From contig CABXWY010000002.1 in the NCBI GenBank assembly GCA_902515985.1, forward strand, positions 1 through 64,000: a DNA stretch of 64,000 nt, in the 5' to 3' direction. Origin of the DNA: an uncultured Pelagibacteraceae bacterium. Its GTDB lineage: Bacteria > Pseudomonadota > Alphaproteobacteria > Pelagibacterales > Pelagibacteraceae. Shown here piece after piece: positions 3,558 to 12,065 of the stretch. Under the pieces are notes generated by a model, which worked only from the letters and a program-made list of their open reading frames with translations, was not told the origin of the DNA and made no database searches. Position 1 is the first letter of the stretch. Each line of letters starts with the position of its first letter. Position numbers and translations under genes: made by a program.

Positions 3558-4292
3558 TTAATGGTGTAAATTTAATGCATCGTTTAAATATATGCATGTT
3601 AAAATTGCAAAAACATATGCCTGAAGAAAAGCAACTAATATCTCCAAACCAGTTAATGCAACTGAAAAACTTAGTGGAAGCCATCCACCAACTAATCCGA
3701 GGCTTATAACAAAACCCCCGAAAACCTTCATCATTGTATGCCCAGCCATCATATTTGCAAAAAGTCTTACCGACAAACTAATGGGTCTACTCAAATATGA
3801 TATTATTTCAATAATTACAATTAATGGCAACAAAACAATTGGGACACCACTTGGAACAAATAACTTTAAGTAGCCAAGACCATGTTTAATAAAACCAATT
3901 ACGGTAACCCCAATAAAAATAAATGCCGCTAAAACAAAAGTAACAATTATGTGGCTAGTAACCGTGAAAGCGTATGGCAACATACCCAACATGTTGCAGA
4001 AAAGAACAAACATGAATAGCGAAAAAATGAAACTAAAATATGGTTTCCCTTTTGAACCAGCTGTATCATTAATCATTTTTGAAATAAATAAGTAACTAAG
4101 TTCAGCAAGTAACTGCATTTTACCTGGAACTATTCTCTTTTTTAATGAACCTAAATTAAAGACAATAAGAATAACTAAAGAGCTGATTACCATAAACAAA
4201 CTAGCATTAGTAAAAGAAATATCTATTTGATCTATTTTAATTTCTGGACCAATTCTATAAACATTGAATTGGTGCATTGGATTTGTAGCCAT
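3558..4292 (-). CDS. atpB: ATP synthase F0 subunit a
   Basis: A 244-residue polytopic membrane protein forming the proton half-channels against the c ring. Key features are the SLSVRLFANMMAGH segment, which contains the essential Arg (RLFAN), and the C-terminal LTGLEILVAFLQAYVFAILTCIYL helix with the conserved Glu and Gln. Length and five to six predicted membrane segments fit AtpB. It sits between atpI (6 nt) and atpE (16 nt) in the standard F0 order. Nothing in it is degenerate, so the F0 motor looks complete here. Confidence 0.96.
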   Translation of the reverse strand: MATNPMHQFNVYRIGPEIKIDQIDISFTNASLFMVISSLVILIVFNLGSLKKRIVPGKMQLLAELSYLFISKMINDTAGSKGKPYFSFIFSLFMFVLFCNMLGMLPYAFTVTSHIIVTFVLAAFIFIGVTVIGFIKHGLGYLKLFVPSGVPIVLLPLIVIIEIISYLSRPISLSVRLFANMMAGHTMMKVFGGFVISLGLVGGWLPLSFSVALTGLEILVAFLQAYVFAILTCIYLNDALNLHH

Positions 4293-9211: not shown

Positions 9212-10341
9212 AAAAAATTGCCATAATAGGAGCGGGAATTTCAGGTTTATATTTAGCAAATCTTTTGGAAAGAAATAAAACTTTTAAATACCAAATATTT
9301 GAAAAAAAAAACTCAATTGATCTTACTGATGGTTATGGAATACAACTTTCTGTAAATAGTATTAAACTTCTTCATAAAGTTGGTTTTAATAAACTCAATA
9401 CTAGTAACTTATATTTTCCAAAAAAAGTAAACTTTTTTAATGCAAGAGATTTAAAAAAAATATGTGATATTGATTTATCTAAATTTAACGATCAAAATAA
9501 TTTTTACACGACTCTCAAAAGATCAAATTTAATTGAGTTTCTATTAAGTGGGATTCCAAAAGACAAATTATTATTTAATTGTGATCTTGTTGATATTCAA
9601 AACAAAAATAGAATATCATTATGTTTTAGAAATAATGAAATTAAGGAGTTTGACTATTTGGTTGCTTCAGATGGTATCTACTCAAAAACAAAACAAATAT
9701 TATTTAAAAAAGAGGGTTTACCAAAATATTTTAATGCAATTGCTTTAAGGGGAAATATCCGAAATTTTGAAAATTTTGATATTTCATTATATCTAGGACC
9801 AAACTTTCACTTTGTAATTTATCCGATTAATCAAAACAAAGAATTTAATTTTATTTCGATTATTAGAAAAGAACTAAATCAAGAGGAAGTATTAAATAAA
9901 AACTTATTTAATGATGATATATTTATAGCAAATTTATTAAACCAGATTTCTTCAAAATCAGACTTAAATTTAGTTAACCAAGTAGAAAAAATTAGATGCT
10001 TCCCAATTTTTGTAAGCAAAAAATTTCAAATACCTCCCTCAAATAATATTTTTTTAACTGGAGACGCGTTTTATTCATTTCCACCCTCATTTGCTCAAGG
10101 CGCATCTCAATCAATAGAAGGTGCTAATGATCTTTTTAATGATTTAGATAATAATTCTTCGAATTATTATAAAAAAAGGATATTGAGAACCAAGCAAATA
10201 AACTTCAGATCTAAACTTAATCATTTTGCTTTTCATCTTTCAAATCCATTTAATGTTTTCTTCAGAAATATTTTTTTAAAAAATCTTTGTAAGAATAAAA
10301 ATTTTTTAGAAAATTATTTAGGAAAAATTTATAACAATTAG
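9208..10341 (+). CDS. FAD-dependent aromatic-ring monooxygenase (UbiH/PHBH-like)
   Basis: A 377-residue group A flavoprotein monooxygenase. It has the Rossmann GxGxxG at the start (IAIIGAGISGLYLANLLE), the DG motif (VASDGIYSKTK, about 150) and the GD motif near 285 (LTGDAFYSFPPSFAQGASQSIEGA), which binds FAD ribityl. This is the fold of UbiH/UbiF/Coq6 and of p-hydroxybenzoate or salicylate hydroxylases. The substrate cannot be read from the sequence; ubiquinone hydroxylation is one possibility but is not proven. It is coupled to mutY by an ATGA overlap. Its TAG stop interlocks with the stop codon of ccrM on the other strand. Confidence 0.8.
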   Translation: MKKIAIIGAGISGLYLANLLERNKTFKYQIFEKKNSIDLTDGYGIQLSVNSIKLLHKVGFNKLNTSNLYFPKKVNFFNARDLKKICDIDLSKFNDQNNFYTTLKRSNLIEFLLSGIPKDKLLFNCDLVDIQNKNRISLCFRNNEIKEFDYLVASDGIYSKTKQILFKKEGLPKYFNAIALRGNIRNFENFDISLYLGPNFHFVIYPINQNKEFNFISIIRKELNQEEVLNKNLFNDDIFIANLLNQISSKSDLNLVNQVEKIRCFPIFVSKKFQIPPSNNIFLTGDAFYSFPPSFAQGASQSIEGANDLFNDLDNNSSNYYKKRILRTKQINFRSKLNHFAFHLSNPFNVFFRNIFLKNLCKNKNFLENYLGKIYNN

Positions 10342-11411
10342 TTTCTTGGTCTTAAACGTTGTCTCAGATCATCGATTGGTTTTAAACTATTTCCTGATTG
10401 ATAATGCCAATAAGTCCAACCATTACAACTTTCGGAGCCTAATATTTGTGCTGCCACTTTGTGAATTGATCCCTCATTTTGTTTATACTTGATACTCCCA
10501 TCTACCCTTACTTTTGCATAAATTTCTTTCTTACTATCATAGATTTCTATTCCAGGTTTAATTATACCCAACTCAATTAATGAGCTAAAAGGAATTCTAG
10601 GTTTAGATTTATTATTTTGAACTGTATCTAAATATTCATCTTGAATTGTATTCGTATTTCTTAATCTTGTATTAGCAACTTGATAATAAATTTTTTCTTT
10701 CTCAATGCCAAAATAATATCTTCCTAGTTTCTTTGAAACTACAGCAGTTGTTCCTGATCCTAAAAAAGGATCTAGTATAAAGTCATTCTTATTTGTGGAA
10801 GCTAATATAACTCTATGAAGCAAAGCTTCTGGTTTCTGGGTTGAGTGAACTTTTATTCCATTATTTTTTAATCTTTCCTTACCATTGCATATTGGTAAAT
10901 TCCAAGTCGATCTCATTTGCAAATCATCATTAAAAGATTTCATTGATTGGTAATTAAAAGTATATTTTGATTTTTTACTTTTTGATGCCCAAATTAATGT
11001 TTCATGAGCATTAGTAAATCTAGTACCCCTGAAGTTTGGCATTGGATTATTTTTATTCCAAATTACATCATTTAAAATCCAAAATCCTAAATCTTGAATA
11101 ATTTTTCCAACCCTAAATATATTATGATAGCTTCCAATCACCCAAATAGATCCATTTTTCTTTAATACTCTTTTGCACTCCTTTAGCCAATCATTTGTAA
11201 ATTTATCGTATGTTTTAAAACTTTCAAATTGGTCCCATTTATCATTTACTGCGTTAACCTTTGATCTATCTGGCCTGATCAAGTTATTTTGCAATTGTAG
11301 ATTATAAGGTGGATCTGCAAAAACTATATCAAATGTCTCGTCTGGAATTTTTTTTAATTCTTTAAGACTATCGCTATTAATAATTTTATTATATAAATTT
11401 TTAGTAATCAT
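10338..11411 (-). CDS. ccrM: CcrM-type adenine-N6 DNA methyltransferase (GANTC)
   Basis: A beta-class DNA methyltransferase. Catalytic motif IV DPPYNLQL lies near the N-terminus and the SAM motif FLDPFLGSGTTAVVSKKLGR comes later. The C-terminal extension (PRIPFSSLIELGIIKPG ... GSESCNGWTYWHYQ ... PIDDLRQRLRPRN) is characteristic of CcrM, which methylates GANTC and times alphaproteobacterial cell-cycle transcription. No restriction partner is adjacent. The track starts at 11453, but the first 14 residues (MTQNPCWSLIILLK) look like translated leader. The Met at 11411 (MITKNLYNKIINSDSL) fits the family. The leader contains three GANTC sites (see separate entry). Confidence 0.93.
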   Translation of the reverse strand: MITKNLYNKIINSDSLKELKKIPDETFDIVFADPPYNLQLQNNLIRPDRSKVNAVNDKWDQFESFKTYDKFTNDWLKECKRVLKKNGSIWVIGSYHNIFRVGKIIQDLGFWILNDVIWNKNNPMPNFRGTRFTNAHETLIWASKSKKSKYTFNYQSMKSFNDDLQMRSTWNLPICNGKERLKNNGIKVHSTQKPEALLHRVILASTNKNDFILDPFLGSGTTAVVSKKLGRYYFGIEKEKIYYQVANTRLRNTNTIQDEYLDTVQNNKSKPRIPFSSLIELGIIKPGIEIYDSKKEIYAKVRVDGSIKYKQNEGSIHKVAAQILGSESCNGWTYWHYQSGNSLKPIDDLRQRLRPRN

Positions 11412-11428
11412 TTTTAATAATATAATTA

Positions 11429-11477
11429 GACTCCAGCAAGGATTCTGCGTCAACTATAGATTGAAAAAAATAGACTC
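11429..11477. promoter_or_regulatory. Cluster of three GANTC sites upstream of ccrM
   Basis: GACTC at 11429-11433, GATTC at 11441-11445 and GACTC at 11473-11477 lie in the 81 bp between the ccrM start and the rnhB stop. GANTC is the CcrM target. In Caulobacter, GANTC sites in the ccrM leader mediate shut-off of its own promoter once fully methylated. Three sites in 49 bp of very AT-rich DNA is far denser than chance, so methylation-dependent autoregulation is inferred. Confidence 0.6.
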
Positions 11478-11492
11478 TACTTGTTGTACTAT

Positions 11493-12065
11493 TTAATTGG
11501 GACTCAACATATTGTGTATAGGACTGAATTTTTTGCGATGATATATAGTGACCCCAAATTTCTTAATTGCTTTTAAATGAAGTTTGGTACCGTATCCAGC
11601 ATTTTTATCCCAAGCATATTTGGTAAATTTTTTTGACAATTTTTTAACAAATCTATCTCTAGTCACTTTAGCAATTATGGATGCGGCAGATATCTGAGGT
11701 ATTTTTTCATCTCCCTTAACTATACATTTAAACTTATAATTTTTAATTTCTGGAATTTTATTTCCATCAATTAAAACGTATGAAGGTTTTTTAATTAATT
11801 TTTTTATTGCTCTTTTCATTGCAAGCAAACTAGCATTTAAAATATTTAATTTTTCAATTTCTTTTAGCGACGCAGATCCAATAGACCAATAAGAATTTTT
11901 TTTTATATATCTTTCTAATATCTCACGGTTTTTTTTTGTTAATTTTTTTGAGTCTTTTATTTTACTTTTATCAATATTTTTTTTTAAAATAACCGCTGCT
12001 GCATATACAGGTCCAATTAAACTCCCTCTACCAACCTCGTCAACACCAGCAACTATTTTTTTCAT
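11493..12065 (-). CDS. rnhB: Ribonuclease HII
   Basis: A 190-residue RNase HII that removes ribonucleotides from DNA and RNA primers. The active-site block GVDEVGRGSLIGPVYAAAV carries the DE pair and the GRG loop that senses the RNA-DNA junction. Further Asp residues occur in YVLIDGNKIP and ISAASIIAKVTRDR. Length is typical. Its start abuts the stop of the uracil-DNA glycosylase gene (1-nt overlap), so the two repair genes form one unit with ccrM 81 bp downstream. Confidence 0.95.
   Translation of the reverse strand: MKKIVAGVDEVGRGSLIGPVYAAAVILKKNIDKSKIKDSKKLTKKNREILERYIKKNSYWSIGSASLKEIEKLNILNASLLAMKRAIKKLIKKPSYVLIDGNKIPEIKNYKFKCIVKGDEKIPQISAASIIAKVTRDRFVKKLSKKFTKYAWDKNAGYGTKLHLKAIKKFGVTIYHRKKFSPIHNMLSPN

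Follow-up and report, generated by a model that had tools for sequence, protein, structure and literature searches.

We consider it probable (roughly 0.6) that the 81-bp gap between rnhB and ccrM in this stretch of Pelagibacteraceae DNA (the window, 64 kb in all) is a ccrM promoter carrying CcrM target sites in its core, which replication-driven hemimethylation would open for transcription and re-methylation would close, in a lineage, SAR11, in which no CtrA was found. The evidence comprises the location of the sites relative to a conserved promoter-like frame, their deep conservation, the recurrence of the layout in other Alphaproteobacteria, and the regulators encoded in these genomes, and it is most economically explained by a ccrM promoter that is timed by methylation.

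The ccrM locus

The ccrM gene (10338..11411, minus strand, ATG at 11409-11411) encodes a 357 aa GANTC N6-adenine methyltransferase. The protein matches CcrMI over its full length (PDB 6pbd, E=4.6e-138) and contains the Pfam domains N6_N4_Mtase and, C-terminally, RAMA, which fits the CcrM family of orphan methyltransferases and bears out its identification by the earlier, sequence-only reading of this DNA. It is the only full ccrM match in the assembly. The upstream neighbor on the same strand is rnhB, the gene for RNase HII (11493..12065, minus strand; Pfam RNase_HII, E=1e-41), and the 81-bp gap is bounded by the stop of rnhB (11493) and the ATG of ccrM (11411). The neighborhood also includes a UDG-family gene, a gene for an FAD-dependent enzyme and one for an HhH-GPD glycosylase. 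In G012, a complete genome of the same genus, ccrM is located ~187 kb from the skew minimum, the presumed origin.

GANTC sites upstream of ccrM

The sequence-only reading noted three GANTC sites within 49 bp upstream of ccrM, and these are indeed present, starting at positions 11429, 11441 and 11473: site 1 (GACTC; GAGTC on the coding strand; 11429..11433), site 2 (GATTC; GAATC on the coding strand; 11441..11445) and site 3 (GACTC; 11473..11477). A fourth site that it missed (GACTC; 11501..11505) occupies the last codons of rnhB, bringing the total to four in 77 bp. The motif is depleted overall, with 125 occurrences in the window against a shuffle mean of 175, and 1642 in the G012 genome against about 3650-3700 under Markov models, a ~2.2-fold depletion. 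When 125 sites are placed at random, the chance that three of them fall within 49 bp at any point of the window is P=0.33, and the chance of four within 77 bp is P=0.04; for at least three in the rnhB-ccrM gap, fixed in advance, P=5e-4. There is no other cluster of three within 49 bp in the window. Nevertheless, because three sites in 49 bp are expected this often anywhere in the window, the raw density is suggestive only, and clustering was rejected as sole evidence. The expectation that this gap is richer in GANTC than other gaps was borne out: the density in G012 is 1.93 per kb in intergenic regions vs 1.19 per kb in coding regions, and 369 of the 455 gaps contain no site at all.

Two other GANTC triplets in G012 (contig C1) were considered as candidate methylation switches, one at 220115-220142 (L255), upstream of a umuDC-like pair, and the other at 177449-177506 (L252), upstream of mraZ-ftsZ. 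Both overlap GTTCACGTTTTGATTC (GTTC-n7-GATTC), a LexA-box-like element of which the second half is itself a GANTC, and because of this overlap, they were not counted as such.

It is conservation, not clustering, that settles that sites 1 and 2 are real. In 120 aligned loci of the window's genus (hereafter g1), site 1 (offset -22) is retained in 99% and site 2 (-34) in 93% when a shift of up to 3 columns is allowed (72% in the exact column), compared to 5-8% for two distal sites upstream of rnhB; site 4 (-94) and site 3 (-66) are kept in 75% and 58%, respectively. Even where CcrM identity falls to 75%, SAR11 loci have GANTC sites at constant offsets from the start codon. Thus, the anticipated conservation in relatives is found for the inner two members of the reported cluster, which are strongly kept, and less so for the third, present in only 58% of the congeners. 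Taken as a whole, the gap does not exceed the genes in conservation (mean top-base frequency 0.77 vs 0.81 and 0.86). Furthermore, a GACTC inside rnhB (11950-11954, offset -543), which encodes Asp-Ser (in DSKKL), is present in 100% of the 120 loci; this case demonstrates that coding constraint can mimic conservation of a methylation site, with no need to invoke methylation.

The core sites are not universal in SAR11. Nine of the 112 unique g1 leaders lack the two-site layout described below, several of them having visibly lost one site by a single substitution. In g134, the spacer site alone remains, and in the genera g135 and g2 (L128, L191-L193, L196), the core promoter of ccrM is devoid of GANTC although CcrM, GcrA and NrdR are still encoded. 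Because these two genera keep CcrM and GcrA but have lost the sites, the proposed methylation loop is dispensable. The suggestion that SAR11 retains methylation timing can therefore apply to g1, g136/g137 and family f122; it does not extend to the order as a whole, both core sites being gone in g2 and g135.

Anatomy of the putative promoter

Alignment of 110 g1 leaders, from which column invariance was determined, revealed a conserved frame consisting of TTCAATC-n3-rGTTGAC, a 17-bp spacer, TCTAAT, 13 nt and the ATG. TTGACG (11448..11453, minus strand), in which TTGAC is invariant, is the putative -35 hexamer, and TCTAAT (11425..11430, minus strand; columns 23-28, ~100% invariant) is the putative -10 hexamer. 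The latter has a C in position 2, where sigma-70 prefers A, and is weak by consensus; a scan for consensus promoters did not call it. Upstream of the -35, the TTCAATC element (11459..11465, minus strand; 98-100% per column in g1) forms, together with GTTGAC (11449-11454), an imperfect dyad, TCAATC-n3-rGTTGA, over the -35. The composite TTCAATC-n3-rGTTGAC occurs once in the complete genome G012 and was not seen among the g136 and f122 leaders inspected. A reading of TCAA-n7-TTGA as a CtrA site was dropped given that CtrA was not found.

Relative to this frame, site 1 overlaps the -10 by 2 bp, site 2 falls between the -35 and the -10, and site 3 lies upstream. Hence, sites 1 and 2 appear to sit in the core promoter, in the spacer and across the -10. 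The sites were originally assigned to the ccrM "leader"; they are upstream of ccrM, but the word is wrong for the inner two because the predicted 5' UTR is only ~6 nt. The central base of site 2 can be A, C, G or T, other spacer bases vary as well, and the site shifts by 1 bp while the total spacing stays constant (3+7 or 4+6 bp), which argues that selection acts on GANTC and not on any fixed string. By comparison, GAGTCTAAT is invariant in g1, N included.

Breadth of the layout

The arrangement TTGAC-n-GANTC-n-GANTC was counted in unique leaders, for which the shuffle expectation was 0-0.07 throughout. It is present in 103 of the 112 g1 leaders (shuffle 0), in 5 of the 7 leaders of g136/g137, where it appears in a different register, in 5 of 7 in family f122, and in 36 of 80 from other alphaproteobacterial families (shuffle 0.07). 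In 33 of these 36, TTGAC is preceded at a distance of 4-26 bp by a third GANTC (4 expected), and the leaders from the other families contain, on average, 3.6 GANTC per 260 bp vs 1.03 after shuffling; the N of both sites varies among these families, whereas the G, A, T and C stay. The layout is absent from 209,014 strand-bases of flanking DNA of other Alphaproteobacteria. Eight g1 genomes, including that of the window (G000, G012, G082, G253, G255, G257, G259 and G265), each contain a single match to the strict pattern; there is one additional match in G245, and there are two in G247.

The earlier reading had left the choice between convergent and conserved use. Because selection maintains the sites in SAR11 and other Alphaproteobacteria share them, inheritance fits better than convergence, and the best reading is a replication-coupled, methylation-responsive ccrM promoter that is ancestral to the class and operates without CtrA in SAR11. 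The recurrence of this promoter layout in many Alphaproteobacteria suggests that SAR11 could link methylation to DNA replication without CtrA.

GcrA and CtrA

GcrA is encoded in 36 of the 41 g1 genomes, and a search of ten Pelagibacterales genera found it in every one, including those without the core sites; loss of GcrA was accordingly rejected as the cause of site loss in g135 and g2, both of which have it. Thus, as in GcrA-dependent promoters, a GANTC between the -35 and the -10 is combined with GcrA encoded in the genome. The OmpR-type regulators of SAR11 are of four kinds, PhoB, two others and a short one, and none of the four scores above 133 bits with a Rhodobacter-type CtrA model (cut-off 350); ctrA is also absent from Pelagibacter in a published comparison (PMC2877005). 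Of the hallmarks of the Caulobacter-type ccrM promoter, GANTC in the promoter is found here and CtrA activation is not.

A proposed replication-coupled loop and its alternatives

In the loop that we propose, passage of the replication fork would convert a fully methylated ccrM promoter into two hemimethylated copies; hemimethylation at the -10 and spacer sites would alter the engagement of RNA polymerase or GcrA and thereby open a window of ccrM transcription, which would close when newly made CcrM re-methylates the promoter sites. The SAR11 loop would run without CtrA, the activator in Caulobacter. The activity of the promoter, its response to methylation, the sign of that response, and the timing are inferred from the arrangement described above and from related systems. 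In Caulobacter, hemimethylated DNA is the sole template for ccrM transcription (PMC2217572), and the effect of the methylation state on ccrM is probably direct (PMC3973325). By published description, the Caulobacter crescentus ccrM promoter is similar in having two GANTC in the promoter (PMC2217572, PMC10073500), and differs in that it requires CtrA, which SAR11 does not show. In Pelagibacter, GANTC methylation is lower near ori, which has been interpreted as delayed re-methylation or cell-cycle control (PMC9516812). Methylomes have thus already led to the inference that methylation of the same motif in the same clade is linked to replication; the passages of that study considered here do not mention the ccrM promoter or its sites. 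This type of control is known, whereas a version that does without CtrA and has a class-wide promoter layout seems to be undescribed in the literature searched.

Methylation might also act with the opposite sign: GcrA, which SAR11 encodes, would bind the methylated spacer GANTC and recruit RNA polymerase, such that full methylation activates ccrM, as with mipZ/ftsZ, in a self-sustaining loop. Caulobacter GcrA binds methylated GANTC spanning the -35 to the -10, and GANTC mutations reduce the activity of the mipZ, podJ, flaY and pleC promoters by 60-80% (PMC3667746); promoters with GANTC between the -10 and the -35 peak at a set time (PMC4287350); and a weak -10 would suit an activated promoter. 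The m6A-dependent promoters of the GcrA-CcrM system (mipZ, ctrA P1, podJ) share with SAR11 ccrM the GANTC between the -35 and the -10 in a genome encoding GcrA. SAR11 ccrM differs from them in having two sites, one of them over the -10. However, g135 and g2 encode GcrA all the same, although they have lost the sites, and the published data on ccrM itself favor activity in the hemimethylated state (PMC2217572). We therefore regard such positive control as rather unlikely, and, by analogy with Caulobacter, shut-off of ccrM by full methylation is the candidate sign, the opposite one being possible via GcrA activation.

Two further explanations dispense with methylation altogether. The conserved bases could be a sigma factor or transcription factor site that spells GANTC by accident, methylation being irrelevant to expression; the invariance of GAGTCTAAT in g1 is what one would expect of a plain -10 element. 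This explanation is improbable because the spacer site tolerates any base at N and drifts in position, other families vary the N of both sites but keep G, A, T and C, and g136 attains the same layout in a different register. That the sites are a chance cluster or a by-product of coding, for which the placement statistics, the fully conserved rnhB codons at 11950 and the position of site 4 within rnhB could be adduced, is very improbable as an account of the whole: the two core sites are intergenic and are kept in 93-99% of the g1 loci vs 5-8% for the distal ones. Conservation refutes such an origin for sites 1 and 2, whereas for sites 3 and 4, it is possible.

An NrdR-box-like palindrome upstream of ccrM

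A palindrome, ACACAATATGTTGAGT on the coding strand (11502..11517), overlaps the fourth GANTC with its right half and matches 15 of the 16 positions of a generic NrdR-box consensus that was drawn up for scoring. It is the sole match of at least 14 in the 64-kb window. Scores of at least 13 were obtained for 110 of the 112 g1 leaders, vs 0.012 expected per 150 bp, and for 20 of 80 leaders from other families vs 5 of 240 shuffles; 19 relatives, whose rnhB stops short of the box, keep it in non-coding DNA. The first box is followed, exactly 31 bp downstream, by a possible second half site (11471..11486, minus strand), which is weak but has conserved ACAA; in a search for a second box, the best score was at +28 over all g1 and at +31 where the box lacks GAGT.

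Pairs of the same motif, 31 bp apart, precede ribonucleotide reductase in SAR11, including the genome of the window (summed score 25, random maximum 22), and a single copy is found upstream of clpX-lon; the loci sharing the palindrome are the window, L384 and the clpX upstream regions of L400-L417. NrdR is encoded in 25 of 25 genomes tested. Hence, as in NrdR-regulated promoters, the regulator is encoded and a 16-bp box is common to the ccrM and ribonucleotide reductase promoters; unlike the latter, ccrM has one full box and a possible half site at +31, and NrdR requires a pair of boxes in helical phase (PMC12051234). None of the papers searched connects NrdR with CcrM. The box as a second input to ccrM is a good lead, not a result.

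Lon is the CcrM protease in Caulobacter. It is conceivable, if doubtful, that two signals couple ccrM to replication in SAR11, and perhaps in Alphaproteobacteria more widely: GANTC methylation of the core promoter, and NrdR, which senses dATP and represses ribonucleotide reductase; the clpX-lon box would then put CcrM and Lon, its likely protease, under one nucleotide-pool signal that replaces CtrA. As a separate observation, nearly all of the Pelagibacterales loci examined (L400-L419, L424 and L426), including those of g135 and g2, have a GATTC(G) ~20 bp ahead of the ATG of clpX.

Implications

The lineages without the sites provide natural controls. A three-site ccrM promoter across families would make self-methylation ancestral to CcrM regulation, which can be tested in Caulobacter or Agrobacterium. 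SAR11 bacteria, which rank with the ocean's most abundant cells, have few regulators, and a CtrA-free loop in these organisms would be near the smallest known version of a methylation clock.
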